Origin: Bacteroidota bacterium
Lineage (GTDB): Bacteria > Bacteroidota > Ignavibacteria > Kryptoniales > JAKASW01
NCBI GenBank assembly: GCA_021789975.1
Contig: JAJYIT010000035.1
Location: 1 to 40,420 of the forward strand
Direction of reading: 5' to 3'
Length of the DNA: 40,420 bases
The translations under genes and the position numbers were made by a program. The notes beneath the pieces are model-generated. The model saw only the letters and a list, made by a program, of their open reading frames with translations. It searched no databases and had not been told where the DNA came from. Every line of letters begins with the position of its first letter. Positions within the stretch are counted from its first letter, which is position 1. Of the stretch, positions 5,275 through 40,420 are shown in pieces.

Positions 5275-5387
5275 AACTTCGAGCGACGGGCAAAAAACGT
5301 AAGACCGGAGAAACGACCAGCCGCTCATTACCGGCTTCAGGTCGGCAATCTGCATTTCTTAATCAAATAGGAAATTAAGTCGACACT

Positions 5388-6431: not shown

Positions 6432-6434
6432 GAA

Positions 6435-7175: not shown

Positions 7176-7214
7176 GAAATGGAAGATCGGAAGTTGAGAA
7201 GGTAAGAACTTAGG

Positions 7215-10421: not shown

Positions 10422-10484
10422 AGCTGCGAGCACGGCGACATGTGGCTCGCACACGCGCTAGAGCAGCGGGGTCAGTACTTCCCT

Positions 10485-10715: not shown

Positions 10716-10758
10716 GCCGCTGCAATTCTTATTCAAAATGGGGTTTAGAAGGATGGAG

Positions 10759-24598: not shown

Positions 24599-24599
24599 C

Positions 24600-26069
24600 T
24601 CAGAATTTCCTTGTCCAGTCTTCATGCCAGCGTTCAATTACGACTTTCGTTTGGGTGAAAAATTCAACCGCATGTTTCGCCTGCCCATGAAGGTCTCCGA
24701 AGAACGAATCCTTCCAGCCACTAAAGGGGAAGAACGCCATGGGAGCAGGTACTCCTATGTTCACACCTATATTCCCGGCAGCCACTTCGTGTCTGAACTT
24801 TCTCGCGGCCGGACCACTCGCCGTAAAAATACACGCAGCATTTCCAAATGGACCGTCGTTTACGAACTTGATTGCATCGTCCAGCGTATCGGAATATTTA
24901 AGGTTCATGACAGGTCCGAATATCTCTGTGGTCGCCGCATCTGAGTCTTCAGGAATGTTTTCAATAATTGTCGGAAAGATATAGTTACCTTTCTCGAAGC
25001 CGTTTACTCTTTTGTTTCTTCCATCCAACAGAATGGTTGCACCTTTGCTTCTTGCCTCTTCGATTATCTTCTCAATCCGACTCTTGCTCTCTTTCGTAAT
25101 CAATGCACCCATCTCGGATTTCTCATCGAGACCGTAACAGGTTGCCTTGGACTTTGCTGCGGCAATGATTTTATCCTTGAATTTCTCTCTCGCACCACCC
25201 ACCAGGATAACGGTGGAAGCGGCAAGGCATCTCTGCCCGGCACATCCGTAAACGCTGTCGGCAATTATTTTCGGAGTAGTTTCAGTGTCGGCATCTTCCA
25301 TGACGACAAGCGGATTTTTAGCACCGCCCTGGGCCTGCACTCTTTTCCCGCTTTCGGTTCCCTTCGAGTAGACGTGGCGCGCGACTTTTGTCGAGCCTAC
25401 AAAACTCACCGCTTTTATATTCGGGTCGGTAAGGATGGCATCGACAGTTTCCTTTGCGCCGTGAATGAGGTTGAGTACACCGGGAGGCAATTTCAACTCT
25501 TCGAATAATTCGAAGATTCGGGTCATTGCACCCGGGACCTTCTCGGAGGGTTTGACGATGTAAGTATTGCCGCACGCCAGCGCATAGGGAAAAAACCAAA
25601 ACGGGATCATAACCGGAAAGTTGAATGGCGCAATGCAGGCGCCGACACCGATCGGCTGGCGAATAACAAACTCGTCAATTCCGGAAGAGATGTCCTCAGA
25701 GAATTCTCCCTGCATCATGGTCGGTATGCCGCATGCGACCTCTAAGTTCTCCACGGCTCTGACAATCTCGCCTTTCGATTCCGCCAACGTCTTGCCGCTT
25801 TCCTTCGTGCATATTGCCGCGATCTCGTCGGCGTTTTTCTCCAGGATCGCCTTCATCCCGAACAGATATTGAATTCTCTTCTCCGCGGGAACTTCTTTCC
25901 ATGTTCCGAAAGCGGCAGCAGCTTTTTCCGCCGCAATCCGAACATCATCTTTACCGCTTAATGGAACACTGCTGACAATGTCTCCTGTACCTGGATTTTC
26001 GACATCCAGATACTGTCCCGATTTTGCATCGAGCCAGATGCCCTTGATGTAATTTTTGAGTCTTGTCAT
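24600..26069 (-). CDS. iolA: Methylmalonate-semialdehyde dehydrogenase (CoA-acylating)
   Basis: 489 residues from ATG 26069 (MTRLKNYIKGIWLDAKSG); the frame is open back to 26216 but that part lies over iolD. Aldehyde dehydrogenase fold with IAPFNFPVMIPFWFFPYALA, FVGSTKVARHVYSKGTESGK and the catalytic Cys in GCAGQRCLAAS. In inositol breakdown it converts malonate semialdehyde to acetyl-CoA and CO2; in valine breakdown it converts methylmalonate semialdehyde to propionyl-CoA. Placement between iolD and iolE supports the inositol role. Confidence 0.92.
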   Translation of the reverse strand: MTRLKNYIKGIWLDAKSGQYLDVENPGTGDIVSSVPLSGKDDVRIAAEKAAAAFGTWKEVPAEKRIQYLFGMKAILEKNADEIAAICTKESGKTLAESKGEIVRAVENLEVACGIPTMMQGEFSEDISSGIDEFVIRQPIGVGACIAPFNFPVMIPFWFFPYALACGNTYIVKPSEKVPGAMTRIFELFEELKLPPGVLNLIHGAKETVDAILTDPNIKAVSFVGSTKVARHVYSKGTESGKRVQAQGGAKNPLVVMEDADTETTPKIIADSVYGCAGQRCLAASTVILVGGAREKFKDKIIAAAKSKATCYGLDEKSEMGALITKESKSRIEKIIEEARSKGATILLDGRNKRVNGFEKGNYIFPTIIENIPEDSDAATTEIFGPVMNLKYSDTLDDAIKFVNDGPFGNAACIFTASGPAARKFRHEVAAGNIGVNIGVPAPMAFFPFSGWKDSFFGDLHGQAKHAVEFFTQTKVVIERWHEDWTRKF

Positions 26070-26073
26070 ATAG

Positions 26074-27933
26074 TCACAGATAATACCTCTGTTTCTTCTT
26101 ATTCTCTTTGTAAGTTTTGTACGCTTTCCTGACAGAATCCATTTCGGACACTTCCGCGACCGCCACTTCCCACCAGGCATATCCTTGGACGTCTTTTTTC
26201 GAATCTGTCTTGACATAGATGACGGTAGTCTTGTCCGATTTCTTCGCGTCGATCAGTGCTCTATTGATCGACGATACATCTTTCGCAGTAATAACATTCG
26301 CTCCGAGACTTCGAGCGTGAGCGGCAAGGTCAACCGGAAGTACTTCACCGTCAAGCTGTCCTGTCCGATCATCCCGGTATCGGTACATGGTTCCAAACCG
26401 ATCGCTCCCGATTGAGTCTGAAAGCGCACCAATGCTACTGAAACCGCTATTGTCCAGCAGTATGATGGTTATCTTAATCCCTTCCTGAACAGCGGTGATA
26501 ATCTCATGGCTGTTCATGAGATAGCTTCCGTCTCCGACCATGACATAGATGTCGCGATCAGGACACGCCATTTTCGCACCGACGCCCGCCGCGATCTCAT
26601 AACCCATGGTCGAGTAGCCATATTCAAGATGGAAGCCTTTCGAATCGCGCGTACGCCACAACTTGTGCAAATCACCCGGCAAACTTCCGGCGGCGCAGAC
26701 AAGGACATCTTTCGGACCGGAGAAGGAATTCACAGCTCCGATGACCTCAGCCTGAGTTACCGGGAGACTCTTCCTGTCCTCATAGTACTTGCTGACCTTC
26801 CCGTCCCAGGAATTGTTGAATGTTACAGCTTTCTGGCGCCAGTTCTCATCCGTTTTGAAATCGCCGATTGAATTAATTATTTCTTCGAGACATGCCTTTG
26901 CATCACCGGCAACCGGAAGTGCAGCATGTTTGTAGGCATCGAATTCAGCAGCGTTGATATTTATGAATTTGACTTCGGGATTCTGGAAAGCCGTCTTCGA
27001 CGCTGTGGTGAAATCGGTATATCGAGTTCCTATCCCGATGATCAAGTCTGCTTCGCCGGCCATCGCGGCTGCGCCTTCGGTTCCGGTTACGCCAACGGCC
27101 CCGAGATTTTCCGGCATGTCATACGGAATCGCTCCCTTCCCTGCAAATGTTTCTGCTACCGGGATCCCTGTCAGTGATATGAACCTGCGCAAAATTTCTT
27201 CGGCGGCGCTATATATCGTACCACCACCGCTAATTATCATCGGCTTCTTGCTTTGCCGGATCCATTCGACAGCATTCGTCAATACTTGCTTATCCGGTCT
27301 TGTCCTTTGTATTGTCCATACCCTTCTTCTGAAAAGCTCAATCGGAAAATCAAACGCTTCGGTTTGAACATCCTGCGGCAGGGACAACACCACGGCACCA
27401 GTGTCTGCCGGCGACGTCAAGACTCGCATCGCCACGGGTAGAGAAGGTATAAGCTGTTCGGGACGACTGATTCTGTCCCAGTATTTTGCCACCGGCTTGA
27501 AGCAATCATTTACGGAAACATCCTGAGTCTCCGCTCTCTCCAACTGCTGCAGCACCGGTGCGACGTTTCTTCTCGCAAATATATCTCCGGGAATGAGAAG
27601 CACGGGCAACCGGTTGATCGTGGCGGCAGCTGCGCCCGTTATCATGTTCGTCGCACCCGGACCGATCGATGAAGTACAGACAAAGGTGCTCAGCCTGTTT
27701 TTCATTTTCGCGTAAGCAGCCGCGGTGTGAACCATCGATTGTTCATTGCGAGTCTGGTAATACCGGAAATCCGGATTTTGCTGAAGTGCCTGACCGATTC
27801 CTGCTACGTTGCCGTGCCCGAAAATTCCGAAGCAGCCGGCAAAGAACCTGTTCTCTACTCCGTCGCGCTCAACAAATTGATTCTTCAGAAATTTTATAGT
27901 CGCCTGCGCAACTGTTAACCGAATCGTTTCCAC
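26074..27933 (-). CDS. iolD: 3D-(3,5/4)-trihydroxycyclohexane-1,2-dione hydrolase, ThDP-dependent
   Basis: 619 residues from GTG 27933 (VETIRLTVAQATIKFL, the usual family start), seven bases after the iolC stop; GTG 27951 would overlap iolC. It has the three ThDP-enzyme domains: FGIFGHGNVAGIGQAL with Glu of RNEQSM in the PYR domain, a central domain (ISGGGTIYSAAEEILRRF), and the ThDP/Mg motif GDGSYLMNSHEIITAVQEGI-x8-LLDN in the PP domain. It opens the ring to 5-deoxy-glucuronate. Confidence 0.93.
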   Translation of the reverse strand: METIRLTVAQATIKFLKNQFVERDGVENRFFAGCFGIFGHGNVAGIGQALQQNPDFRYYQTRNEQSMVHTAAAYAKMKNRLSTFVCTSSIGPGATNMITGAAAATINRLPVLLIPGDIFARRNVAPVLQQLERAETQDVSVNDCFKPVAKYWDRISRPEQLIPSLPVAMRVLTSPADTGAVVLSLPQDVQTEAFDFPIELFRRRVWTIQRTRPDKQVLTNAVEWIRQSKKPMIISGGGTIYSAAEEILRRFISLTGIPVAETFAGKGAIPYDMPENLGAVGVTGTEGAAAMAGEADLIIGIGTRYTDFTTASKTAFQNPEVKFININAAEFDAYKHAALPVAGDAKACLEEIINSIGDFKTDENWRQKAVTFNNSWDGKVSKYYEDRKSLPVTQAEVIGAVNSFSGPKDVLVCAAGSLPGDLHKLWRTRDSKGFHLEYGYSTMGYEIAAGVGAKMACPDRDIYVMVGDGSYLMNSHEIITAVQEGIKITIILLDNSGFSSIGALSDSIGSDRFGTMYRYRDDRTGQLDGEVLPVDLAAHARSLGANVITAKDVSSINRALIDAKKSDKTTVIYVKTDSKKDVQGYAWWEVAVAEVSEMDSVRKAYKTYKENKKKQRYYL

Positions 27934-27940
27934 TTCGATC

Positions 27941-28948
27941 TTAAAATCCACCGTGTGTCTCTATGAAGTCATTTGCCTCTTGAAGTGTCGGATTGAAATT
28001 GGCACATCCATGTTTGGTGACAAGGATGGCCCCGCAAGCATTTCCAAATCGGCAGCACTTGTACCAGTCCCAACCTTGTAGGTAACCATAGATGAATCCC
28101 GCGGCAAATGCGTCTCCGGCACCGAGGACATTTACAACTTGCACAGAAAAGCCCGGTACGTCCGCAACTGTTCCGTTTTTCAGAAACGCCGACGACCCTT
28201 TGTCGCCTCTTTTCACGATAAGAGTCTCCACCCCCGTCTTGAGAATTTTCTTTATCGCCTCGTCGACGTTGCCGGTAATTTCGGGTGCGGAGATCTGCTG
28301 GTTCCTGATTTTTATCTGACGGGGATCTTTCAGCATCGTGGCTAATATTTCCTCTTCAGTGCCGATAGCCATTTTGCAATAATTCAGAAAGGCACGCGCA
28401 GTCACCCCGTAAGCTCGCGGGTCATGCCACTGGTCTGCTCTGAAATCCAGATCGAGGAGCACGGGAACACCGTTCTCAACTGCCTGTTCCGCCGCATAGA
28501 ATGCCGAGGAGCGCGAGGGCTCGACGCTCAACGCGGTAGCTGAGACTTCCAGGAGTCGGCAGCTCGCGACATTTGCCTTCATCACATCGTCTATGTCCAA
28601 TTTCGAATCGGCACAGTTGTCACGGTAGTAAACAAGCGGGAAATTGTCCGGCGGCTGTATCCCAAGAATTACGGCGCTCGTGCGAGCACCGGTCTTCACC
28701 GGAATGAATGCAGTCTCCACCCCCTCTTTCTTTAGAAAATTAAGAAGGAACTTGCCAACCATGTCATTCCCGACGGCGGTCAACAACGCGGAATTCAACC
28801 CGAGCCTTTTTGTCCCGACGGCGATGTTCAACGGCGACCCACCAACGAATGCGCCGAACTCTTTGATCTCTTCGAAGGGACTCCCGATGTTGTTGCTATA
28901 TAGGTCGATGGACGATCGGCCGTATGTTATGACGTCATATTTCTTCAT
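27941..28948 (-). CDS. iolC: 5-dehydro-2-deoxygluconokinase
   Basis: 335 residues from ATG 28948, four bases after the iolB stop. PfkB/ribokinase fold: FVGGSPLNIAVGTKRLGLNS near the N-terminus, and the catalytic-base motif VLGAGDAFAAGFIYGYLQG near the C-terminus. It phosphorylates 2-deoxy-5-keto-gluconate to the 6-phosphate. The protein has only the kinase domain, with no C-terminal DUF2090 aldolase-like domain, so the following aldolase step must be encoded elsewhere. Confidence 0.92.
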   Translation of the reverse strand: MKKYDVITYGRSSIDLYSNNIGSPFEEIKEFGAFVGGSPLNIAVGTKRLGLNSALLTAVGNDMVGKFLLNFLKKEGVETAFIPVKTGARTSAVILGIQPPDNFPLVYYRDNCADSKLDIDDVMKANVASCRLLEVSATALSVEPSRSSAFYAAEQAVENGVPVLLDLDFRADQWHDPRAYGVTARAFLNYCKMAIGTEEEILATMLKDPRQIKIRNQQISAPEITGNVDEAIKKILKTGVETLIVKRGDKGSSAFLKNGTVADVPGFSVQVVNVLGAGDAFAAGFIYGYLQGWDWYKCCRFGNACGAILVTKHGCANFNPTLQEANDFIETHGGF

Positions 28949-28952
28949 CAAA

Positions 28953-29849
28953 CTACCCGACAGAGTTCATTTCCAGCGTAACTAGCGGCAACCGTTCATC
29001 CATCTTCTTCCATGTCCCATAAATCCATTTATGATCAGGATCGTCGCTGTTAGCCAGCGACTGGTCGCTCCCTGACAGCATATTCAGATAGTATGTGTTG
29101 TATCCGTGTCCGGCCGAAACCGGGTGATAACCCCGCGGCACGAGTACGACATCATCGGTGTGTGCCTCTGCAATTTCATCAAGATTTCTGTCAGAGGTGT
29201 AAATTTTCTGCAAGGCAAACCCCTGCGGTTTGTCGAACTTGTACAAATAAATCTCTTCCAGTTTAGCTTCGACCAATTTCCCTTTTTCGTCAAATACACG
29301 GTTGTCGTGTTTATGCGCGGGGAAGGAGCTCCAATTTCCTGATGGAGTGTAGACCTCAACGCAGACAAGCCTGTGACACGATGAACCTGGAGGTAGGATG
29401 GAATTTATTTGTCGTGACGCATTATCACCGCCCCTGAGCTCGATTCCGAAATTCTGGACGTCTTCCGGCGTGATCAAAAATCCTTTGAAGCCGGCACTCC
29501 CTTCCGTGTACCCGTATGCAATGTCGAGGGTATTGCTCCGACAGGTCAGAGTAAACTCAGTGTCCGGCGGCAGGTATGCTGCATGTGGAAGGCCGCCAAA
29601 GACATTGATCCTGGCGTTTTGAGTCCCCCATTTTCCCCATTTGGACTGAATCGAGAAGACTCCTCCTAACAGGACAACGCAAAGTTCGTATTCGTCCGTG
29701 CTGTGTTTCCACTCCTCCCCCGCTCGCATCCTCCGCGCACCGAAGTTCAGGTGTGCCCAACCTGCATCATGGGCGGGGACATCTTGATATATACCGTCTG
29801 CATGATCGTCAGGATGAATGAGAACCGAGCATCTCTTATCGACTCGCAT
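28953..29849 (-). CDS. iolB: 5-deoxy-glucuronate isomerase
   Basis: 298 residues, bicupin. GEEWKHSTDEYELCVVLLGG is in the first cupin; the metal site appears in WSSFPAHKHD, the Glu of LEEIYLYKF, and GYHPVSAGHGYNTYYLN. It converts 5-deoxy-glucuronate to 2-deoxy-5-keto-gluconate. It is slightly longer than the usual 270 residues. It starts three bases after the stop of the LacI-type regulator, as the first enzyme gene of the run. Confidence 0.92.
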   Translation of the reverse strand: MRVDKRCSVLIHPDDHADGIYQDVPAHDAGWAHLNFGARRMRAGEEWKHSTDEYELCVVLLGGVFSIQSKWGKWGTQNARINVFGGLPHAAYLPPDTEFTLTCRSNTLDIAYGYTEGSAGFKGFLITPEDVQNFGIELRGGDNASRQINSILPPGSSCHRLVCVEVYTPSGNWSSFPAHKHDNRVFDEKGKLVEAKLEEIYLYKFDKPQGFALQKIYTSDRNLDEIAEAHTDDVVLVPRGYHPVSAGHGYNTYYLNMLSGSDQSLANSDDPDHKWIYGTWKKMDERLPLVTLEMNSVG

Positions 29850-29852
29850 AGC

Positions 29853-30875
29853 TTACTTGGAGGTGTGCTTGAAGACCGAGTCTCTCTCGATGATCTTGTG
29901 TTTCAGTGTCACTTTCTCGTTGAGCGGCATGGAAGAATGGTTGATTTGCTTCACCAACAGTTTTGCACCGGCCTTGCCGATTTCGTACGCAGGCATCTGC
30001 ACAGTTGTCAGCGGGATCCTGACGTACATCCCGAAGTCAATGTTATCGAATCCCATCACGGAGACCTTTTCCGGCACATCAATTTTCATTTCTGTCAGCG
30101 CATTGATCACGCCGATCGCAACCAGGTCGTTGTAACAGAACACCGCGGTCGGATGTTGTATCGTTTTCGAGAACAACTCCTTAGCCGCCTGATAGCCATC
30201 GGGAGTGTACGGCTCCACAGGAACGATATAGTTCTTTTCGATCGAGATTTTGTGATCGATCAGGGCTTGCTGGTACCCGTCGAGTCTTTTCTGACCGTGG
30301 CCGGACCATAGGGGGCCCGCCAAATGGGCGATGCGTGTGTGGCCTTTTTGTATCAGGTAGGTGACCGCATCGTAGGCCGCTTTCGTATTATCGATATCGA
30401 CGACATTGGTGGAATAGTTCGTGACTGTCCCCAGCAATACGAGCGGATAATTGTCGTTAAGAAGGTTTGACAAATACGTGAAGTTCGCTTCTTCGCTGTG
30501 CAATGGTGATATGACCAGCCCGTCGACTCTCTTGCTGACGAGCGTGTTGACTATCTCAGTCTCCCTTACCGGCGACAATTCGGAACTTCCTAATAGGACA
30601 GAGTAGCCGAGCTGAGAGCATGCATCGTAAACGCCTCTCATCAGCTTTGTAAAATACGGATTGTCGATTTCCTTTATGATCAGACCGATGCTCTTCGTTT
30701 CACGTGCCGCGAGAGATTTTGCCAGGTGACTCGGGTTGTAGTTATACTTCTTGATTATTGCCAGGATCCTGGAACGCGTCTCCCGCGAAACACCGGGCTT
30801 GTCGTTGAGAACAATTGAGACTGCCGACTTGGACACATTTGCAAGTCTCGCGATATCCGAGATTGTCATTCTCAT
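29853..30875 (-). CDS. LacI-family transcriptional regulator, likely of the iol operon
   Basis: 340 residues. Helix-turn-helix at 3-24 (TISDIARLANVSKSAVSIVL), hinge helix NPSHLAKSLAARETKS, then the periplasmic-binding-protein-like effector domain (SIGLIIKEIDNPYFTKLMRG, VSVMGFDNIDFGMYVRIPLT). As the first gene before iolB it probably senses an inositol pathway metabolite and controls this operon, possibly also glp or mannosidase genes. ATG 30875 or 30869 is the start. Most characterised iol regulators are DeoR- or RpiR-type; LacI-type control is less usual. Confidence 0.88.
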   Translation of the reverse strand: MRMTISDIARLANVSKSAVSIVLNDKPGVSRETRSRILAIIKKYNYNPSHLAKSLAARETKSIGLIIKEIDNPYFTKLMRGVYDACSQLGYSVLLGSSELSPVRETEIVNTLVSKRVDGLVISPLHSEEANFTYLSNLLNDNYPLVLLGTVTNYSTNVVDIDNTKAAYDAVTYLIQKGHTRIAHLAGPLWSGHGQKRLDGYQQALIDHKISIEKNYIVPVEPYTPDGYQAAKELFSKTIQHPTAVFCYNDLVAIGVINALTEMKIDVPEKVSVMGFDNIDFGMYVRIPLTTVQMPAYEIGKAGAKLLVKQINHSSMPLNEKVTLKHKIIERDSVFKHTSK

Positions 30876-30926: not shown

Positions 30927-31652
30927 TCAGAACATCAACCTATAAGTTGCGGCTGCGATAGCGGCCCCACAGATCGGCGCCACTACCGGAATCCATGAAT
31001 ATCCCCAGTCGCTGTTACGCTTGTCCCTTATCGGAAGCACAGAGTGCATTATTCTGGGACCGAGGTCCCTTGCGGGATTTATAGCATATCCAGTGGTACC
31101 ACCCAATGAGAGACCGATGGCAAGGACAAGAAGTGAAACCGGGAGCGCATCAATTGACCCAATGCCGACGTTTGGTGCGGCAAGGCAGAGAACACCGAAA
31201 ACTAATACAAACGTACCGATCACTTCCGAAAGAAAATTGTCCATGAAGGATCGGATTGCCGGAACTGTGCAGAAGACGACGAGCTTGAGATCACGATCTT
31301 CCGTCACGTCGAAATGCTGTCGATACTGCACCCAGACCAGGAGAGCACCCATGGCAGCACCGACCGTTTGACCCAGTATATATAGCGGCACTTCTGACCA
31401 TGGAAACTTGCCAGCCAACGCAAGACCAATTGTAACTGCGGGATTGAGCTGTGCGCCGCTCATCGAGGCTACACAATAGACCCCGACAAATACTGCCATC
31501 GCCCATCCGAACGTTATTACAATCCAACCTCCGCTCCCACCTTTTGTCTTTTTCAGAACAACGTTTGCAACGACACCATCACCAAGGAGGAGAAGGAGCA
31601 TCGTTCCCAGGACTTCTCCAAGAAAACGCGTGAGTTCTCCGCGTAAGATCAA
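30927..31652 (-). CDS. glpF: Glycerol uptake facilitator (aquaglyceroporin)
   Basis: 241 residues, six helices plus two half-helices with the motifs QLNPAVTIGLA and AINPARDLGPR; the Asp after NPAR is typical of glycerol-conducting members. It carries GEVLGTMLLLLLGDGVVANV at the start. The start is TTG at 31652, overlapping the glpD stop (TTGA), with AAGGGA upstream in glpD, so translation is probably coupled. It conducts glycerol and small polyols through the inner membrane. Confidence 0.92.
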   Translation of the reverse strand: MILRGELTRFLGEVLGTMLLLLLGDGVVANVVLKKTKGGSGGWIVITFGWAMAVFVGVYCVASMSGAQLNPAVTIGLALAGKFPWSEVPLYILGQTVGAAMGALLVWVQYRQHFDVTEDRDLKLVVFCTVPAIRSFMDNFLSEVIGTFVLVFGVLCLAAPNVGIGSIDALPVSLLVLAIGLSLGGTTGYAINPARDLGPRIMHSVLPIRDKRNSDWGYSWIPVVAPICGAAIAAATYRLMF

Positions 31653-33208
31653 TTGAGAATGTATCCCTTCGCCAAATCGGAATACCGGCTTATTTGCTCA
31701 TCTTTCCAATCTTTCCCGTAATGGAGCTCTTTTGCCATCAACTCTGCGACCATCGGCGCGCCTTCGATACTCGCATTCGCGTCGAGGAATAGCGCCCGCG
31801 TTCTCCGTGCAAGGACATCCTCAACTGTCCTGGCCATCTCGTTCCGGGTGTGCCAGATTACTTCGCCTTTTAGATACGGAAGTTGGGGATGGATTTGCTC
31901 GCTGAATGCCGGGTCTTCAGAGAGGACTTTTTTTACTGAAGTCGAATCCGAACCGTAGATGGACAGGTTATCAACCTGGCATTCTTCCTCTTGCCATCCG
32001 TGTATCTTAAGATCCGCCGAGACGCTCGGTTTTTTCACGAGTCCGCCGACACCGATCGCCTGGTCAACTGCGTCTTCGCCCATTTTTCGGTAAGTTGTCC
32101 ATTTTCCCCCGGCGACCGTTACCAGACCCGATGGCGATACAAAGACGACGTGCTCACGAGATATTGCCGAAGTCTTCCTACGCCTGCTCGACTTTACGAG
32201 CGGCCGCAATCCGGCAAAGACACTCTTCACATCCTTTCGGGAAGGATCCTTAGCCATGTATCTTGCCGCATGGTGGAGAATGAATTCCACTTCTTCTTCA
32301 AGCGGTCTCGGTTCAAGCTCCGGCTTCTGCATCGGAGTGTCGGTCGTGCCAACAAGCACGCTGTCGTGCCAAGGCACGACGAACAGCACTCTTCCGTCAT
32401 CCGTCTGTGGGACCATGATGGCCGACTCTCCCGGAAGAAAGTCTTTTTCAAGCACAAGATGCACGCCTTGACTGACTTCAATCACCGCCTTTGATCCACG
32501 GTCATCCATCGCTGCAATTTGATCCGAGAAAATTCCAGTAGCGTTGATGACGACACGTGCCTTGAGTTGATACTCTTTTCCGCTTTCTTCATCGACGGCA
32601 ACCACGCCTGCAACAACACCATCATTCTTCAAAAGCCCTGTCACTCGCATATAGTTAATTGCGAAACCGCCGAAATCGAAGATAGTTTGTGCAAGGTTGA
32701 TCGCGAGCCTGGAGTCGTCGAACTGACCGTCGAAATATATGACCCCGCCGTGAAGACCTTTCGATTCGACATTTGGAATCCGATCGAGAGCCTCGTTCTT
32801 TGAGATTATTTTGGATGGCCCAAGCCCAAGTTTACCGGCGAGTAGATCGTATACTTTCAACCCCGCACCGTAGAACGGGCCGTTCCACCAATCATAACTC
32901 GGTACCACAAAAGACAGATTGTGAACGAGGTGCGGCGCGTTTTGCATAAGAAGTCCACGTTCGTGCAGCGCTTCATATACAAGCGAAATATTACCATGTT
33001 GGAGATAGCGTACACCGCCATGAATCAGCTTTGTACTCCTGCTCGAAGTACCTTTGGCAAAGTCACATTGTTCCAGGAGCAAGGTCTTATATCCTCTCGA
33101 TGCCGACTCCACTGCCGCACCCAACCCTGTAGCACCGCCTCCGATAATCAATACGTCCCAGTACCCCTTTTCGTCCTCGAGCCTTGGGATGGCCTCTCGT
33201 CTTACCAT
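31649..33208 (-). CDS. glpD: Aerobic glycerol-3-phosphate dehydrogenase
   Basis: 519 residues from ATG 33208, 10 bases after the glpK stop; the longer frame to 33247 overlaps glpK. FAD-binding IIGGGATGLGAAVESASRG, then GTSSRSTKLIHGGVRYLQHG, VINATGIFSDQI, LFVVPWHDSVLVGTTDTP and a C-terminal DAO_C domain. It oxidises glycerol 3-phosphate to dihydroxyacetone phosphate and passes electrons to quinone at the membrane. Order glpK-glpD-glpF. Confidence 0.93.
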   Translation of the reverse strand: MVRREAIPRLEDEKGYWDVLIIGGGATGLGAAVESASRGYKTLLLEQCDFAKGTSSRSTKLIHGGVRYLQHGNISLVYEALHERGLLMQNAPHLVHNLSFVVPSYDWWNGPFYGAGLKVYDLLAGKLGLGPSKIISKNEALDRIPNVESKGLHGGVIYFDGQFDDSRLAINLAQTIFDFGGFAINYMRVTGLLKNDGVVAGVVAVDEESGKEYQLKARVVINATGIFSDQIAAMDDRGSKAVIEVSQGVHLVLEKDFLPGESAIMVPQTDDGRVLFVVPWHDSVLVGTTDTPMQKPELEPRPLEEEVEFILHHAARYMAKDPSRKDVKSVFAGLRPLVKSSRRRKTSAISREHVVFVSPSGLVTVAGGKWTTYRKMGEDAVDQAIGVGGLVKKPSVSADLKIHGWQEEECQVDNLSIYGSDSTSVKKVLSEDPAFSEQIHPQLPYLKGEVIWHTRNEMARTVEDVLARRTRALFLDANASIEGAPMVAELMAKELHYGKDWKDEQISRYSDLAKGYILN

Positions 33209-33218
33209 TATGATAAAA

Positions 33219-34715
33219 TTAATTTTCTTTGGCCCAATCCTTCGCACGTCCTACCGCCCTAACCCAGTTGCGCGTTAGAGCCTTGGCGTCATCGTGATTC
33301 ATCCGCGGTACAAATTTCTGATCGACCGTCCATTGTTTGTCGATCTCTTCGATCCCTTTCCAGAATCCGACGCCGAGTCCAGCCAGATATGCCGCACCCA
33401 ACGCCGTTGTCTCGAAAATCTTCGGCCGAACAACCGGTATGCCGAGTAGGTCCGCCTGGAACTGCATCAGCGAATCGTTGACACAAGCACCTCCGTCCAC
33501 ACGCAGCTCGTTCACCTCTATTCCCGAATCGGCTTCCATAGCTTTCAGAACGTCGTAAGTCTGAAAGGCAATCGATTCCAAAGCCGCTCGTGCGATGTGT
33601 CCCTTTGTAGTCCCGCGGGTAATTCCAACGATCGTCCCTCTCGCAGACTGGTCCCAGTAAGGTGCGCCCAGCCCCGCAAACGCAGGAACGAGATATACGC
33701 CGCCATTGTCCGGCACGGTCCGGGCTAATTGTTCTACCTCCGAAGAATTACCGATAATACCCAGCCCGTCTCTCAACCATTGAACGACAGCCCCGGCGAT
33801 AAAGATGCTCCCTTCAAGCGCGTAACAAATCGTGCCGTTCAATTTCCAGGCGATCGTCGTAAGTAGATTGTTCCTGGATACAATGGGCCTATCTGCCGTG
33901 TTGAGAACCAAGAAGCCTCCTGTGCCGTATGTATTTTTCAACATCCCCGGTGTGGTGCACATCTGACCAAAGAGTGCAGCCTGCTGGTCGCCAGCAATTC
34001 CTGAAATCGGGACTGTCGTACCCAGGAATGCCGGTCCGGTCTCTCCGAAGACTTCACTTGAGGACCTCACCTCCGGCAGAACGCTTTCGGGGATATCAAT
34101 CAACTCGATGAGCTCTTTATCCCATTCCGCCGTGTGGATGTTGAAGAGCATCGTTCTGCTGGCGTTAGTCACGTCGGTGATGTGGGTTTTCCCACCGGTG
34201 AGTTTCCAGACGAGCCAACTGTCTACTGTTCCAAAGGCAATTTTGCCACTTCTCGCCGCGGCTCGCACACCTGGTACGTTGTCGAGTATCCACCGGATTT
34301 TCGTTGCGGAGAAATATGCATCTATCACCAAGCCTGTCTTAGCGCGGATTATCTCTGCCAGACCCATCTTCTTCATCTGTTCGCAATAGCCGGAAGTTCT
34401 TCGATCCTGCCAGACGATCGCATTGTAAACAGGCTCGCCGGTTTCCCGGTCCCACAAAATGGTGGTTTCCCTCTGGTTGGTTATTCCGATGCCGGATATG
34501 TCCGAACCGCTGATTCCGATTTTTGAAATAGCTTCCGTGACTACACTTGCCTGAGAAGACCAGATTTCTTTGGGATCATGCTCAACCCAGCCGGGTTTCG
34601 GATAGTACTGTCTAAATTCCTTTTGAGCGGTCGAGACCATCTTGCCGTTCCGGTCAAAGACTATCGCTCTTGAACTTGTAGTTCCCTGATCTATGGAGAT
34701 AATATAACTGCCCAT
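33219..34715 (-). CDS. glpK: Glycerol kinase
   Basis: 498 residues from ATG 34715 ([20 protein letters not shown]). FGGY-kinase features are complete: [44 protein letters not shown], and [20 protein letters not shown] followed by [12 protein letters not shown]. It phosphorylates glycerol to glycerol 3-phosphate. It is 24 bases from the stop of the upstream glycosidase gene, so it may be read from the same transcript. Confidence 0.94.
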
Positions 34716-34739
34716 CAACGAGCCATATCCAGCAGGCAG

Positions 34740-36905
34740 TTAGTTCCGCCCCGCATGCACGATGCGAATGCCATTCTTATCGCTAATAATGTTGTAAGTA
34801 CGGTTGCCGTCTCGCACATCCAGCAGTTCGCCATCGAAACCGCGAGGCTGCACATTTGAGATCAGAGTATGCGTCAGGTGGTTCGGTTGGTAACCGAAAA
34901 ATTCTCTTATGATTGTCTCGGCGAAAGAGCCGCCGTTGCTGCCGTTGTACGTCTGGCTGTGGTAGCCGAAAGTCATGAAGTCTGTAATGTGAACAGGCGC
35001 GTCATATCCCTTTCCAATAAGTTGACGCGACTGAGAGAACGGCCCTTCATAAGTAGTCCCGGTACAACGGTGAAGAAATTTTAGAGCCTGACCGTATTTG
35101 CCAAACTCACACATGACAGCCATTGTCTCTGCGGGCCAGGCACAAAAGGCGCCAATCGGCCCGTGGTCAGGTCGGTTGGACTCGGCGGCAGCCGGATCTC
35201 GCCACGAAAGTGCCCGCATCCAGTGGGCAGTCAACAACTGTGTATCGACGAAATGAAGCATCTCATTCCTGAGTCGCTGTGAAAGATCCTTCGTCAGCGT
35301 CAGACCTATTGTTGCAAAGTCGAAAATCGTGCGGACTGCAACCCGTTTTCCATTGTCATGCACACTGTACCAGTATCCTTTTCCCGGTACATGAAGCTTC
35401 ATCACTGCGGCGAGGAGACTCTTTGCCATTGAACGAAGATGTTCTGCTTTCTTCCTGTGACCCATTGCTTCCTCGACCTGTGCAGTACGCTGCATCAGCC
35501 ACACGTTCGCGGCGTTTAACGAAGCCACTTCGCCGATGTAAGTCGGCACGCACTCCAGGAGGTTTGAGGCGTCGCCGTAATTCGCGAGTGTGTGACCGGG
35601 CTTCACGAGCGACTTCCAGTGCGTCGCTATCTCGTACATGTGCTGGAGAACTGTCTTGCCATTTATCTTCTCGGACAGAAATGCCGTATCGTGCGTTACA
35701 TCCAGATAGTCATTTAGCAGAATGAAAATCGAATAGTCGTTCGCGCTGTACCATACTCCCTGCATCGATCCTGTTAGAAATTCTTCAGCGTAACCGTTGT
35801 AAATACCCTTCGACAGCCAGGAGGTCAGATATTCTTTCATCATAGCCGGGTCCAGCAGCGCAAGCGTTGTCGCCCACTCGCGTGTATCCCAGAAATACAT
35901 CATAATGCAATTACTCTCAGGCGAATTACTGATGTAGGCACGCGGGGCAACAGGAAAGCATGTGCGGTAAACACTGAGCAGAGACAAGATGCTCATGTAG
36001 TACATCCGCCGGAGATCCTTGTCGGCAGTAACCAGTACCGGCAGATGACCGGAGAAGTAAGCATTGCCGGGAGTGAACATTGCGCTCCACCGGCTCTCCC
36101 AATCGATCTTGACTGCATCAAACGCAGATGGAAAATGTGCGGCGGTTTGTGCAGCCAATTCATGCACACTTTCGTCCGCATGACCGATTATCAACACATA
36201 ATTGATCACCCTGCTGCCGTGTGGCTGGAGGGTGACTGTCCAGGTCGCCGCGCCGGAATGCTTGTTGACTGATAAATTATCCGGCGTGGTTTCAAAAGAG
36301 AAACAATTGCTCAGCCCTGCACCGGCATTTTCCAACAGGAGAGAACGGCCGCCATCGATGGATTTCGCGGAAAAGGAGACAGAATCAGCGTCTCGCGGCA
36401 TTTGCCAGCCCCAGCTCTTGTGTTCTGAGGTGTATGCCGCAAGATTTATTTCCACATGAAATATCTTTCGAGCAGAAGCGACATTTTTCAGATCGATATG
36501 GAAGAGTAAACCTCGTTTCTCATACATCATCCGCACTGCCGTTTCGATTCGGAGATCCCCCGCATGGCCTTCTCGCAAAGCCTGATAGGCGTACCACCTT
36601 GTCTCTTCGAGCTTCGGTATTTTGCCATCGACATGCATGGCGCCCGTATTGCCATTCATGAGTATCGGCGGGAAACTCAGGTTGCCGATTTGTAGGACTC
36701 CATCGACGCATTGCGAAGAGCCCTGTGTGCTGTTCAGGGCTGGATAGCATAGTAACGTCGATGCCTTCTGCCAGCTGCCGGCGAGCGCATTCAGCTTCGG
36801 TATCTTGGACTCAGGACCTTTCGCAGCAAACGCGCTTGAAAGGAAGGCAAGACTGAGAATAGATGCCAGAGTTGCAAATTTAAAAAGAGTTATAAACTTT
36901 TTCAA
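34740..36905 (-). CDS. Exported six-hairpin (alpha/alpha)6 glycosidase, family uncertain
   Basis: 721 residues from TTG 36905, supported by AGGAAG six bases upstream. Signal peptide 1-27 (LSLAFLSSAFAA). A beta-rich N-terminal domain (to about 260) is followed by a helical barrel with MYFWDTREWATTLALLDPAM, SMQGVWYSANDYSIFILLND and FCAWPAETMAVMCEFG, the layout of GH63/GH65/GH95-like enzymes. I cannot assign the family. Candidates are alpha-glucosidase, fucosidase or mannosidase types. It is between the phosphoesterase and glp genes, and probably periplasmic or secreted. Confidence 0.75.
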   Translation of the reverse strand: MKKFITLFKFATLASILSLAFLSSAFAAKGPESKIPKLNALAGSWQKASTLLCYPALNSTQGSSQCVDGVLQIGNLSFPPILMNGNTGAMHVDGKIPKLEETRWYAYQALREGHAGDLRIETAVRMMYEKRGLLFHIDLKNVASARKIFHVEINLAAYTSEHKSWGWQMPRDADSVSFSAKSIDGGRSLLLENAGAGLSNCFSFETTPDNLSVNKHSGAATWTVTLQPHGSRVINYVLIIGHADESVHELAAQTAAHFPSAFDAVKIDWESRWSAMFTPGNAYFSGHLPVLVTADKDLRRMYYMSILSLLSVYRTCFPVAPRAYISNSPESNCIMMYFWDTREWATTLALLDPAMMKEYLTSWLSKGIYNGYAEEFLTGSMQGVWYSANDYSIFILLNDYLDVTHDTAFLSEKINGKTVLQHMYEIATHWKSLVKPGHTLANYGDASNLLECVPTYIGEVASLNAANVWLMQRTAQVEEAMGHRKKAEHLRSMAKSLLAAVMKLHVPGKGYWYSVHDNGKRVAVRTIFDFATIGLTLTKDLSQRLRNEMLHFVDTQLLTAHWMRALSWRDPAAAESNRPDHGPIGAFCAWPAETMAVMCEFGKYGQALKFLHRCTGTTYEGPFSQSRQLIGKGYDAPVHITDFMTFGYHSQTYNGSNGGSFAETIIREFFGYQPNHLTHTLISNVQPRGFDGELLDVRDGNRTYNIISDKNGIRIVHAGRN

Positions 36906-37034: not shown

Positions 37035-39563
37035 TTAGCTTCCTGCCGAGTAGATCGAATATCTCGGGATCGGCATGCTAGTTCCTTTGATGGCTCGCCA
37101 GAGTATTTCATTGAATTCCCGAGGTGGGACCATATCGGCATGCGCGAAATTCCAGTGATCCATGATGGACTGTCCGTACGCACCAAGTGGATTTCTGGCG
37201 TTGATATTTATCATCGGCTTGACGACGGCGTAGCTTGCCGTATCGATGTTCATCGTGAAAGAATTGAACATTGGAGTGGCCGCGGCATCATACTGGCTCA
37301 TGGGTGGGAGGCCCAATATCAGCTCCATCGTCCTAAGCATGGATGAGGTGGTGTAAAGGGTGTTGTCGACAAAACCCCTCTTCACGTATGGGCTGATCAC
37401 CAGGCCTTCGGTTCTGTGCTCATCTACGTGGTCGGCACCGTCTTGTGCATCGTCCTCAATAACGAAAATGGCAGACTTATCCCAAATCCGGCTGTGAGAT
37501 ATCCGGTTTACAAAGAGACCAAGCGCATAATCGTTCTGTGCCACCATAGCCTGCGGAGTCCACGCTCCTTTAGTCGTCCCCCATGTATGATCGTTCGGCA
37601 AGCGAATAATGCTAAGGTGAGGTAATTTCCCCTCACGAACGAGCCGCGTGAAATCCTGATTCCATTGCTTGTACCTGTCCACATCGGAGAATTTCAGATC
37701 CCAACTGTGATACCATACATCCGTATGTCCAAACAACGCCCTTTCAAGTGGAGTGTTTGGGATCGAAGAATTGATATGAGCGAGTATAAATTTGCTGTCG
37801 TTCACTTTCGGGTATCTGCTGAGGTCCGATTCGACCATCTTTGTCGGGTACACAAATTCTCCGTAGTCCCTGAACGAGATGCCATGCCTCAGGCAATCAT
37901 TCCAGATAAAACCGGAGGCCGGGCTCGATGTCGGCACGCCGCCTTCGAAGTCATACGGCCCGCCTCGACCGCCATAATTGTTCTGCCAGCTCTTCTGAAC
38001 AAAGTCGGTCGCATAAGCAGCATCGGACCAGTTGTGACCATCCGCGCTCACTTCGGCATTCGCATAGAGATTGTCGAGCAGGACATAATCCCTCACGAGC
38101 TTATGAATGTTCGGAGTGATCTTCTCACCAAACAGTACAAGGTTCGGATCTCCATTCCCTATTTTTATGTCTCCCAGCACCTGATCGTACGTCCTGTTTT
38201 CTTTGATGAAATAGAAAACATACTTGATCGGCGATTTACCCCCGACTTTAGACGGGATGGGATTGTCGGGATCGAGAGCGGCTGTTTCCAAATCCTTCGG
38301 ACGATACGGTGTGTTCGCATATACTTCTTTTGTGTATTTGGCGAGCATCTCGTGGCCGGGAAACTTGAAGAAGGAGAGGGTCCCTATCACCATCCTGCCG
38401 ATATACCACCTGTTGTGTGAACCCTCCTTGAAGCCCGGATTCGGCTTCGATCGGTTTCCTTTCCCGTTGACGACCAGGACTGTACCATTCTTCAGCTCAA
38501 GGACCTTAGTCGGATACCAGCCGACCGGAATGAATCCGATGGGTACAGGCCTCTCAGGATCCGAGAGGTTGACCACCGCAAGATCATTGTTATCGGCATC
38601 AGCAACGAGGAGGCGCTTGCAATCAGGTGTGATGCACACTGAGTTCGGAGTCGCTCCCTCAGGTGAATCGGGATACAATGAAATGGAAATGTTCGCCAAC
38701 GCCTTATGCGTTTTGAGATTAATCATCGTGACGCTATTGTCATTCGCGTTCGCGACGAATGCCGTTTTATCATCACGCGTAACGGCTATTTCGGTCGGAT
38801 GGGTGCCGGTGGGAACTTCATACAGCAGGTTCGTGCCTTCGAATGCCTCGATCTTTTTTGAACTCCAAATGGAAACCAGGAGAGTTCCGTCTTTGAGGAA
38901 TTTGCAGGCGTAGGGCATCCCATCCAGTTTCACTACCGAGAATTTGTGAGTTTGCTGGTCATAGTAGCGGAGAGTATTATCCGCTCTAAAGACAGCGGCA
39001 AGCACATCGCCGTGCACATCTAACCCGGCGGTCCAGGCAACAGCTTTTGGATGAGGCGGCAGGAACTGAATCGTATCGGAATTCTGCAGGTGGCCGTCGA
39101 CAAGATTGAAAGTGTAGACACAATTCTGATTTCCGCCAGATACGTAAAGTTTGTTTCCGTGGAACTTTATGCCGAGCCAACTGTCTTTCAGCTTTATTGA
39201 CTGGACGACTTTGCGATTCTTGAGATCTACGAGCATGACAGTTGGTTCATCCCATCCGTCATTTGTAACCACAATGTATTTTTGTCCCGGGGAGACAGCT
39301 GCGTTAAGAGGCATCGTACTCAACTTGATGGAATGACCGGCAGGTGTGAGCCACCATCCGTTAGCGAGAAGAGTACGCCCGTTCATTTCACCTGGGGTTT
39401 GAGAGTACAGCGAGCCACAGAGGAGAAATAGCAATGGGACAGTGTAAGAAACGCTGAATCCGAATTCCGAAATCCTGAACAATTTTCGAAGCTCCAAAAT
39501 CAAATGTTGATGGGATGGAAATGAAGCAAAACAAAGAGGAACGCGGTTTCGAGACTTGGCCAT
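37035..39563 (-). CDS. Exported beta-propeller and phosphoesterase (phospholipase C-like, PF04185) protein
   Basis: 842 residues from ATG 39563. The frame is open to GTG 39671, but that overlaps the GH92 gene, and the stretch up to the signal peptide (LFRISEFGFSVSYTVPLLFL) is repeat-derived, so the true start is uncertain. After the signal peptide (ends near GSLYSQ) come YVTN/YncE-type propeller blades (GTHPTEIAVTRDDKTAFVAN, CKRLLVADADNNDLAVVNLS). An alkaline-phosphatase-superfamily phosphoesterase follows, with FYFIKENRTYDQVLG (ENRxxD metal motif), VSADGHNWSD, and IEDDAQDGADHVDEHRTEGL. This domain is shared with non-specific phospholipases C and acid phosphatases. The substrate is unknown; a phosphodiester of a glycolipid is inferred from context. 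Confidence 0.82.
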   Translation of the reverse strand: MAKSRNRVPLCFASFPSHQHLILELRKLFRISEFGFSVSYTVPLLFLLCGSLYSQTPGEMNGRTLLANGWWLTPAGHSIKLSTMPLNAAVSPGQKYIVVTNDGWDEPTVMLVDLKNRKVVQSIKLKDSWLGIKFHGNKLYVSGGNQNCVYTFNLVDGHLQNSDTIQFLPPHPKAVAWTAGLDVHGDVLAAVFRADNTLRYYDQQTHKFSVVKLDGMPYACKFLKDGTLLVSIWSSKKIEAFEGTNLLYEVPTGTHPTEIAVTRDDKTAFVANANDNSVTMINLKTHKALANISISLYPDSPEGATPNSVCITPDCKRLLVADADNNDLAVVNLSDPERPVPIGFIPVGWYPTKVLELKNGTVLVVNGKGNRSKPNPGFKEGSHNRWYIGRMVIGTLSFFKFPGHEMLAKYTKEVYANTPYRPKDLETAALDPDNPIPSKVGGKSPIKYVFYFIKENRTYDQVLGDIKIGNGDPNLVLFGEKITPNIHKLVRDYVLLDNLYANAEVSADGHNWSDAAYATDFVQKSWQNNYGGRGGPYDFEGGVPTSSPASGFIWNDCLRHGISFRDYGEFVYPTKMVESDLSRYPKVNDSKFILAHINSSIPNTPLERALFGHTDVWYHSWDLKFSDVDRYKQWNQDFTRLVREGKLPHLSIIRLPNDHTWGTTKGAWTPQAMVAQNDYALGLFVNRISHSRIWDKSAIFVIEDDAQDGADHVDEHRTEGLVISPYVKRGFVDNTLYTTSSMLRTMELILGLPPMSQYDAAATPMFNSFTMNIDTASYAVVKPMININARNPLGAYGQSIMDHWNFAHADMVPPREFNEILWRAIKGTSMPIPRYSIYSAGS

Positions 39564-39610
39564 TTGAATTTTGTTTTTGTTTAGAGTTTCGAATTTAGAG
39601 TTTATAGATT
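39440..39610. repeat. AT-rich repeat at the 5' end of the phosphoesterase gene
   Basis: CCGAATTCCGAAATCCTGAA and GAGTTTCGAATTTAGAGTTT with CATTTGAATTTTG lie either side of the proposed ATG. They are related in style to the GAATTTTGAATTC repeats near the DUF58 and batD starts. In frame they encode the FRISEFGFSV-type peptide. Confidence 0.5.
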
Positions 39611-39636
39611 GATTCCCGGTCTGTCGAGCCTGAATA

Positions 39637-40420
39637 TCACTTATATGATGGTGGTGCCTCGTTCGGTGCACTTCCCCAGCTTTTGTCGGGCATCGAACTC
39701 AAAGTGTAATCAATAGTACCGCCATGCTCGATTTCCGTAAACCACATCCAGGGCTTGCTCCACTTCTTGCCGTTGATTACGAGGCTGTGGACGTATGGCG
39801 TTCCGTCTTTCGCTCCGTGACCTATTATAGTCACCGTCCCGCTGTGCATGTGTATCTCTGCTTTGGGGAATAGCGGACTGCCGAACACGAACATCGGTGA
39901 ACCCGGCTCCTCAGGATACATCCCAAGGGCTGAGAAGATGTACCACGATGACATCTCGCCGAGGTCGTCGTTGCCGGGGAAGCCGAGAGGCTTGCTCGAA
40001 TAGAGCGTCGTCACCGCCCTTCGCACAATTTCCTGCGTCCTGTATGGCTCGCCGAAAAAGTCGAATTCCCACGGTGTCTCCAGACACGGCTCGTTGCCAA
40101 GATAACAGTACTTCGACCTTACTCCTGCATTCAACTCCGTAAAGAAATCGTCGAGGCGGCTGGCCGCCGTTTTCTCTCCCCCCATCTTCTCTGCAAGACC
40201 CTTTAAATTCCACTGAACTGCCCAGACGTATTGCGGCGCAGTCCCTTCCACGTATGCCTGGTTATGATCATAAGTAAGTACGGTGTCGGCGAATCCTTGA
40301 GTCCAGTCCCCGTTCAGTTCCTTCATCTGCAAGTAGCCGGTCGCCGGATTGTAAAGGTTCTTCCAGTCCTGAGCGTGATTAAGAAGCAACCCGGCATCCG
40401 ATTTGCGACCGAGGCTCGTT
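39637..40420 (-). CDS. GH92 alpha-mannosidase, C-terminal part (5' end beyond window)
   Basis: About 260 residues are visible; the frame is open to the window edge (...SLGRKSDAGLLLNHAQDW), so TTG 40389 is not a real start. It has the GH92 C-terminal landmarks YVEGTAPQYVWAVQWNLKGL, GNEPCLETPWEFDFFGEPYR, FPGNDDLGEMSSWYIFSALG and MYPEEPGSPMFVFGSPLFPK. It is only distantly similar to the GH92 protein at 20275-22575, so the two are paralogues with probably different linkage preferences. It stops 73 bases before the proposed phosphoesterase ATG, in the same direction. Confidence 0.92.
   Translation of the reverse strand, partial: TSLGRKSDAGLLLNHAQDWKNLYNPATGYLQMKELNGDWTQGFADTVLTYDHNQAYVEGTAPQYVWAVQWNLKGLAEKMGGEKTAASRLDDFFTELNAGVRSKYCYLGNEPCLETPWEFDFFGEPYRTQEIVRRAVTTLYSSKPLGFPGNDDLGEMSSWYIFSALGMYPEEPGSPMFVFGSPLFPKAEIHMHSGTVTIIGHGAKDGTPYVHSLVINGKKWSKPWMWFTEIEHGGTIDYTLSSMPDKSWGSAPNEAPPSYK

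Follow-up and report, generated by a model that had tools for sequence, protein, structure and literature searches.

On what does a phosphoesterase fused behind a beta-propeller act, when its gene stands in one run with mannosidases and with genes for the use of glycerol and inositol? This question is raised by contig JAJYIT010000035.1 of a Bacteroidota bacterium (assembly GCA_021789975.1; Ignavibacteria, Kryptoniales, genus JAKASW01). Its 40,420 nucleotides were analyzed as a whole and are called the window; G000 denotes the window's own genome. The original prediction described the fusion as phospholipase C-like and derived from a neighboring mannosidase and another glycosidase the idea that it acts on phosphatidylinositol (PI), glycerophosphoinositol or mannose phosphates. 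This idea gains independent weight, because glpKDF and iolBCDAEG, which had not been mentioned, adjoin the gene and share a paired upstream site with it. What is new is the genomic context of the gene. Its product may be a periplasmic PF04185 phosphodiesterase (alkaline-phosphatase superfamily) which releases glycerol and inositol or inositol phosphate from mannosylated glycerophosphoinositol, a reading to which we give slightly less than an even chance.

The genes of the run are, starting from the contig edge:

39637-40419, minus strand: C-terminal part of a GH92 alpha-mannosidase, cut by the contig edge (PF07971, 2.4e-74)
37035-39671, minus strand: propeller-phosphoesterase open reading frame (ORF), 878 amino acids from the furthest GTG, called from the open frame and homology
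34740-36905, minus strand: GHx721, 721 amino acids, predicted (alpha/alpha)6 fold of the GH94/GH78 type (model fold match), no sequence family
33219-34718, minus strand: glpK, glycerol kinase (TIGR01311 above cut-off)
31649-33247, minus strand: glpD-type glycerol-3-phosphate dehydrogenase (Pfam/NCBIfam; below the NCBIfam equivalog cut-offs)
30927-31652, minus strand: glpF-type channel of the MIP family (Pfam/NCBIfam)
29853-30875, minus strand: LacI-family regulator (Pfam/NCBIfam)
28953-29849, minus strand: iolB (TIGR04378 above cut-off)
27941-28951, minus strand: iolC (TIGR04382 above cut-off)
26074-27951, minus strand: iolD-like thiamine pyrophosphate enzyme, named from family and position
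24600-26216, minus strand: iolA/mmsA-like aldehyde dehydrogenase, named from family and position
23699-24637, minus strand: iolE-like TIM-barrel protein, named from family and position
22633-23685, minus strand: iolG, inositol 2-dehydrogenase (TIGR04380 above cut-off)
20275-22575, minus strand: second GH92 alpha-mannosidase, full length (family match)
18528-20261, minus strand: sodium:solute symporter, candidate for inositol or sugar uptake (family match)

These genes are co-directional in the order GH92, phosphoesterase, GHx721, glpK, glpD, glpF, lacI, iolBCDAEG, GH92 and symporter. From the phosphoesterase to the symporter the gaps are at most 129 bp and the genes often overlap. A distance of 154 bp lies between the phosphoesterase and the GH92 gene before it, and the first larger gap (775 bp) is found beyond the symporter. 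GH92 enzymes are alpha-mannosidases, and the roles of GlpF, GlpK, GlpD and the Iol enzymes are established. The products of iolB, iolC and iolG exceed their equivalog cut-offs within one run, which marks the cluster as an iol operon. Like other bacterial iol operons, it combines iolB, iolC and iolG with D-, A- and E-like genes and a regulator; here, in contrast, the glp genes, a mannosidase and the phosphoesterase precede them in the same run. A class II aldolase gene (PF01116), located between lacI and iolB in the sister genome G011 (L176:10517-11437), is missing from the window's iol cluster (28953-30875). With the alpha-mannan loci of Bacteroidota that carry GH92 and GH76 (PMC9213526), the locus shares a TonB receptor and GH92, and in two sister loci GH76; here a phosphoesterase, glycerol genes and inositol genes are added to these.

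The mannosidase which had been noticed beside the phosphoesterase is thus a GH92 enzyme. The other glycosidase, GHx721, belongs to no Pfam or NCBIfam family and had no relevant match in a search of PDB sequences. Its predicted model (mean pLDDT 67) nevertheless superposes on GH94 phosphorylases with Z about 21-23 (570-606 residues) and on GH78 rhamnosidases with Z up to 23.9, and GHx721 is probably a carbohydrate-active (alpha/alpha)6 enzyme. Within the class, 10 of 245 genomes carry it, including six of the 13 genus genomes (with a fragment in G002). In four loci its relatives adjoin GH92 genes, and in one locus a GH38 gene.

The 13 genus genomes, of which G012 is 84% complete, served as the comparison set. 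The upstream end of the locus was found on contig C74 of G000, which bears a TonB receptor, a protein with a type IX secretion system (T9SS) tail and, at the contig end, the N-terminal part of a GH92 gene; by synteny, C74 would be joined to the window. The genome G005 has the same order from the receptor to the second GH92 gene, spread over contigs C166, C149 and C277, and the link across these contig ends also rests on synteny. Between C74 and G005 the receptor is 86% and the T9SS-tailed protein 95% identical, and from the first GH92 gene onwards the identity is 95-99%. No relevant match for the T9SS-tailed partner was returned by the search of PDB sequences.

Two CGGTTTAG sites, 76 bp apart, are located upstream of the TonB receptor in G000 as well as in G005, about 200-290 bp ahead of the gene. 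In this upstream DNA the two genomes match only in stretches of 48 bp (77%) and 33 bp, and a TTGACA hexamer lies just ahead of the first site, within the 48-bp stretch. G011 has a LacI which is 79% identical to that of the window and an iol cluster with no glp genes beside it. There, one pair (74 bp) directly precedes lacI, and the receptor gene of the iol locus has a second (78 bp) about 0.3 kb ahead of it. Across the genus, five matches to the pair were obtained in three genomes (one each in G000 and G005, three in G011), and these are the same 3 of 13 genomes that have iolB. The reversed pattern, used as a control, matched in 0 of 13 genomes, and about 0.65 chance matches are expected by our own arithmetic with equal base frequencies. 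Four of the five matches precede a receptor gene or lacI, and the fifth (G011:C67), overlapping a tRNA-Ser gene, was put down to chance. The half-site was spotted by eye in the upstream DNA and tested afterwards. The motif was thus chosen from the first sightings themselves, whereas the genome-wide count and the reversed control are independent of that choice. A scan for CG-centered palindromes found no site common to the loci, and scans for promoters and terminators stayed near chance level. We infer that the LacI of the iol cluster, presumably in response to an effector, binds the putative paired site and thereby controls the run containing the phosphoesterase. The T9SS-tailed protein beside the iol cluster of G011 was dropped as evidence, as more than 100 full or partial relatives occur in 9 of the 13 genomes.

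Within the genus, second copies of the phosphoesterase are paired with glpD. In 12 of the 13 genomes (all but G012) one copy lies at a conserved site, next to dap genes and/or a BNR-repeat protein, with the G005 contig showing the other flank only. A second copy is present in G000, G002, G003, G005 (two), G010 and G012. With the window's GlpD as query, seven clear GlpD copies were obtained, all from these six genomes, each of which has at least one. They lie 0.04-4.8 kb from the second phosphoesterase copy where both share a contig, and near it by synteny in G005:C277; on the GlpD contig of G003 the phosphoesterase is represented by its last codons only. The seven other genomes have neither GlpD nor a second copy. 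Such a split would arise by chance in 1 of 1716 cases if the genomes were independent, which they are not. Four weak GlpD matches of 19-21 bits (G008, G001, G005:C396 and G009) were not counted as GlpD. The glpD of G005:C29 (L058:11672-13228) is split by an in-frame stop, either as a pseudogene or through a sequencing error, which disturbs a simple account of the pairing.

A single inherited clade of glpD-linked copies was rejected by the approximately unbiased (AU) test (p 0.0008 for all seven copies, p 0.0023 without the G002 copy), and three changes are placed on the tree. As the second copies do not form one clade, the pairing with glpD seems to have arisen or been restored at least twice, provided that gene conversion among copies within a genome has not distorted the tree. 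A third, distant paralog (L074:8810-11485, G000:C73) adjoins a DeoC-type aldolase gene and a GCV_H/Fer4/NrfD cluster with a sensor kinase and a sigma-54 regulator; the same clusters were found in G001.

GlpD is the catabolic partner common to all glpD-linked loci, and four of these genomes have no close GlpK. This would suit a hydrolase of a glycerol-phosphate polymer or decorated glycan (teichoic-acid-like) that supplies glycerol-3-phosphate to GlpD, with the iol genes forming a separate module; the iol cluster of G011, which has neither glp genes nor a phosphoesterase beside it, fits such a separation. We regard this explanation as very improbable. A glycerol-3-phosphate importer was not recognized among the genes scanned, which did not comprise every ORF, the window's glpK and glpF favor glycerol as the imported product, and the paired site connects the run with the LacI of the iol cluster.

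The phosphoesterase itself was then described by the following features, with residue numbers counted from the furthest start (numbers of the 815-residue model are 63 less):

39399-39482, minus strand: probable signal peptide, judged by eye, with a helix at residues 7-26 of the model
38355-39347, minus strand: seven-bladed YncE-like beta-propeller, model residues 46-376 (fold match to YncE)
38184-38201, minus strand: ENRTYD with the E/N metal-site pair E491 and N492, corresponding to E23/N24 in NPC4 (conservation and alignment)
38046-38048, minus strand: proposed nucleophile S542 (AEVSADGHNW), in 112/112 rows, aligned with the serine of SxPxH in phospholipases C (PLCs) of the same genome
37587-37589, minus strand: invariant H695 of NDH, candidate for NPC4 H264, in 112/112 rows, with a gappy alignment at this position
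37413-37454, minus strand: DDAQDGADHVDEHR with the D740/D741 metal site, corresponding to D299/E300 in NPC4, each in 111/112 rows

The coding frame proposed earlier (37035-39563) is real, and 39563 is an in-frame ATG within the 878-codon frame; the frame nevertheless reaches 39671, and neither of these starts is the one we favor. Since the alignments of homologs begin only at about residue 75-80 of the 878-residue frame, a TTG at 39482, ahead of the signal peptide, is the preferred start and would give a protein of 815 amino acids. In G005 (L048:6947-10774) a single 1276-codon frame, truncated where the contig ends, contains both GH92 and phosphoesterase, and in the window they are separate open frames which overlap by 35 bp; this difference reflects either a small indel or an assembly error. 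No T9SS tail (Por_Secre_tail) was found in the Pfam scan of the phosphoesterase. Because a signal peptide is present and such a tail was not found, the protein is predicted to be exported and located in the periplasm.

The fusion of a beta-propeller to a PF04185 domain was borne out by Pfam and by the structure model. The Phosphoesterase family PF04185 matches amino acids 515-789 with 41.7 bits (cut-off 23). A Lactonase propeller family is barely over its cut-off (25.3 against 21.7), a THOC3 propeller family stays far under its own, and a PI-PLC X domain is not among the three Pfam families matched at E 0.001. In NCBIfam, propeller and acid-phosphatase models match, of which a short beta-propeller repeat alone passes its cut-off, and the YncE equivalog NF052280 is not reached (23.1 bits against 400). 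The NCBI product name for such proteins is 'bifunctional YncE family protein/alkaline phosphatase family protein'. The search of PDB sequences matched the YVTN propeller 1l0q and the acid phosphatase 2d1g.

The predicted model (mean pLDDT 76.5, pTM 0.79) has a well predicted propeller, which superposes on E. coli YncE (3vgz) with Z 32.3 and an rmsd of 2.6 over 294 residues and is, according to the model, of the seven-bladed YncE type. The fold is shared with YncE at about 10% identity, and the surface-layer propeller 1l0q is the best sequence match to it; in contrast to the protein described here, neither is fused to a phosphoesterase. Among the matches listed, the fold search with the model gave propellers only. 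A role in binding a surface polymer or lipid, as suggested earlier for the propeller, is conceivable. The nucleophile loop (model residues 476-519) is mostly below pLDDT 50, and the active site was for this reason read from the sequence.

Conservation was assessed over 112 rows, comprising the window and 111 distinct frames chosen by BLAST homology without selection for motifs. Three matches that do not reach across the catalytic part were excluded; all are fragments at contig edges, two from the G005 copy and one from that of G003. Both motifs named in the original prediction are present exactly as given and are conserved across these rows, and the expected metal-site residues E491, N492, D740 and D741 are in place (model numbers 428, 429, 677 and 678; S542 and H695 are 479 and 632). 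Invariant in 112/112 rows are E491, R493, D496, S542, H695, E739, D747, H748 and R753, and N492, D740, D741 and Q743 are kept in 111/112. The full catalytic set E, N, S, H, D, D is intact in 111/112 rows. The remaining relative (L065:8864-11200, G058:C15; 36% identical) is without the metal-site N, D and D together and keeps the serine and the histidine; it is possibly a changed or inactive enzyme.

The reference for these assignments is the plant PF04185 enzyme NPC4. In it, E23, N24, T158, D299 and E300 are reported to hold the metal; T158 is proposed to be the nucleophile, and the enzyme is crippled when any of these five residues, H79 or H264 is mutated (PMC9837106). The same work reports that EDTA does not lower the activity, which leaves the need for metal open in NPC4, and names as assay substrate glycosyl-inositol-phosphoryl-ceramide (GIPC), an inositol-phosphate glycolipid (PMC9837106). 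The correspondence is firm for the E, N and D, D positions and good for S542 as the counterpart of the nucleophile (SxxGH as against SxPxH), and it is tentative for H695 and H264, each being judged from alignments. An exported phosphoesterase with a PF04185-type mechanism is very likely.

To weigh the term phospholipase C-like, a profile of 107 family rows (98 used; from the window, genus and class loci and 80 named loci), selected by a pattern that itself contains EN and DD, was compared with one of 14 PLC rows. The latter represent six genes of G000, most of them present twice. The two profiles align with a probability of 98.9 (hhalign; E 3.2e-17) over 308 columns which span the domain including the ENRxxD part. 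With NPC4 (8hav/8haw) and the bacterial PLCs the family shares the E-N pair, the Ser/Thr nucleophile, the D-D/E pair and the later histidine. In contrast to the PLCs of the same genome, it is fused behind a propeller and about 40-100 residues shorter at the general-acid segment: the spacing from the glutamate to the nucleophile is 52 residues in 104/112 rows and 58-68 in the other 8, as against 108-154 in the 14 PLC rows. In the profile alignment the propeller-phosphoesterases lack the segment on which NPC4 carries the general acid H79 together with its partner D76. A DxxH motif occurs between glutamate and nucleophile in 2/107 family rows as against 8/14 PLC rows (3/6 genes), and two histidines of this segment are invariant in 5/5 aligned PLCs. 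Because the stretch bearing H79 and D76 is missing, the protonation of the leaving group must differ from that in NPC4. The best sequence match of the catalytic part to a solved structure is the AcpA-type acid phosphatase 2d1g (E 1.5e-12 with the family profile), which spans profile positions 645-738 only and no propeller.

The earlier characterization thus holds for the PF04185 domain and its catalytic residues and fails for a PLC in the strict sense: the enzyme would work like a PF04185 phosphoesterase and should not be named a phospholipase C. That it is nonetheless a true PLC which converts intact phosphatidylinositol or PI-mannosides to diacylglycerol and inositol-phosphate head groups seems improbable to us. 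The PF04185 homology would suit this function, as would the reported cleavage of GIPC and phospholipids by NPC4 (PMC9837106) and the further PF04185 protein which lies between the phosphoesterase and glpD in G010, G012 and G003. The lost general-acid segment speaks against it, and so do glpK and glpF, as they imply free glycerol, which a PLC would yield only together with lipases; none of these was found among the window genes scanned.

The architecture is common in Bacteroidota and also found in other phyla. A scan of named genomes returned at least 588 relatives, of which the best 80 are mostly from Bacteroidota, with one each from Blastocatellia, Sumerlaeota, Planctomycetota and Verrucomicrobia; two of the 80 loci belong to the window's genus and 78 lie outside it. 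No substrate of the propeller-PF04185 architecture was found in the literature searched, in agreement with the original prediction. Among the 78 loci, six have weak IolA-, IolG- or LacI-like matches (25-28% identity), one has an S-methyltransferase and L146 has GH92; relatives of GHx721 occur in 0/78 of the flanks examined.

Several relatives lie next to genes of phosphonate catabolism. In the 80 loci, a relative of the phosphonate-degradation HD protein TIGR03276 was found in five (195 against a cut-off of 215 in L141), a PhnX-like protein in four (191 against 219 in L141) and a TIGR03364 FAD enzyme in three, above the cut-off in both that were scanned, with DUF5690 proteins alongside. FAD enzymes of aminoethylphosphonate (AEP) clusters are reported to convert N-methyl-aminoethylphosphonate (PMC12366243, PMC10574752). 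In 395 Bacteroidota genomes, TIGR03276 matched 16 at E 1e-20, seven of them over the family cut-off. Of these 16 genomes, 13 have the phosphoesterase family. The two genes are 0.2-3.2 kb apart in five (four genera), three of which involve a divergent, longer phosphoesterase, and in the other eight they lie apart. About 0.08 such neighbors within 7 kb would be expected by chance, by our own estimate from genome sizes and copy numbers. The loci and genomes with phosphonate-gene neighbors are L130, L136, L140, L141, L117, L150, G533, G320, G388, G358 and G524, from Bacteroidota and one member of the Verrucomicrobia. A phosphonate ester is a plausible substrate of these relatives, and the linkage supports the release of head groups as the general work of the family.

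The breadth of the family would also suit a general periplasmic phosphomonoesterase or phosphodiesterase which scavenges phosphate, the copy in the run supplying phosphate with no special substrate. No single neighbor is conserved (the commonest neighbor cluster, the TonB receptor, is present in 8/80 loci), the conserved-site copy of 12/13 genus genomes (dap/BNR-repeat) has no carbohydrate context, and PF04185 relatives such as NPC4 are reported to be promiscuous (PMC9837106). A second copy paired with glpD in 6/6 GlpD genomes, with copies that do not form one clade, a shared paired site in place of isolated expression, and the recurrent linkage to phosphonate catabolism elsewhere speak against a scavenger, which we hold to be unlikely.

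In the preferred reading, the release of glycerol and inositol from mannosylated glycerophosphoinositol, the TonB receptor would bring a mannosylated inositol-phosphate-glycerol compound into the periplasm, where the GH92 mannosidases and the GH94/GH78-fold enzyme would trim the sugars. The phosphoesterase would work chiefly on diesters of a polar head group, cutting the inositol-phospho-glycerol link, and may also dephosphorylate a monoester. S542 would attack the phosphorus, with the metal held at E491, N492, D740 and D741, one alcohol would be freed from the diester substrate, and water would resolve the phospho-serine; the remaining inositol phosphate could be dephosphorylated by the same site. 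Glycerol would enter by GlpF and be used via GlpK and GlpD, inositol would enter, perhaps by the symporter, and be used via IolBCDAEG, and LacI would control the whole gene run. Because GlpF and GlpK accompany the phosphoesterase here, free glycerol is the likelier imported product. The opposite cut, with glycerol-3-phosphate and inositol as products, is consistent with the four genomes that lack a close GlpK.

An inositol-phosphate-glycerol substrate has about an even chance. A mannosylated head group is likely, because mannosidases lie at both ends of the run. A GH76 gene stands next to the phosphoesterase in the sister loci of G010 (Pfam) and G003 (79% identical to that of G010) and recalls lipomannan: a mycobacterial GH76 is reported to free the PI-mannoside anchor from lipomannan (PMC11233589). 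An origin of the substrate from PI-mannosides or a glycosylphosphatidylinositol (GPI) type of molecule is tentative and rather doubtful. The same holds for the wider proposal, for which we see a limited chance, that the locus is a dedicated system for mannosylated glycerophosphoinositol (an actinobacterial PI-mannoside/lipomannan anchor or a GPI-like glycan) and the family one of polar-head-group hydrolases paired with fitting catabolic genes. In that proposal the regulated run would dismantle the molecule into mannose, inositol, phosphate and glycerol after the propeller-phosphoesterase has opened it, and the head groups would be those of inositol and glycerol here and phosphonates in other Bacteroidota.

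Several observations weigh against this interpretation. Only G000 and G005 have a close GlpK; in the other four glpD-linked genomes the next best matches are unclassified FGGY kinases of 23-33% identity, IolB, which is found only in G000, G005 and G011, is absent, and GlpF was not found in the loci read. The full inositol reading thus depends on G000 and G005, and as these two genomes hardly differ in this region, they amount to a single case. Outside the genus, relatives of glpK, glpD, glpF, iolB, iolC, iolD, iolE and GH76 occur in 0/78 loci, whose flanks are often short. Among the window genes scanned neither a lipase nor an inositol monophosphatase was found, so that enzymes encoded outside this set would be required to obtain free glycerol from an acylated lipid. 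Yeast or fungal mannan would also explain GH92 together with GH76, and the mannose need not belong to the same molecule. Finally, given the L065 relative, not every member of the family need be a metalloenzyme.

In the remainder of the window, the genes for MoxR, DUF58, vWA, TPR and BatD proteins form one run (1170-9963), an ordinary aerotolerance-type (Bat) operon, and imperfect 21-nt direct repeats with eight overlapping register copies are located at 10480-10731. An Rfam search of the window at the gathering thresholds gave no match.

The gene run gives the propeller-PF04185 architecture a concrete, testable substrate and links phosphodiester cleavage to the use of inositol, glycerol and mannose under apparently one regulator. 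If the reading is true, it would show how environmental bacteria feed on the head groups of inositol glycolipids and, together with the phosphonate-linked relatives, would suggest a head-group-releasing enzyme in the turnover of organic phosphorus.

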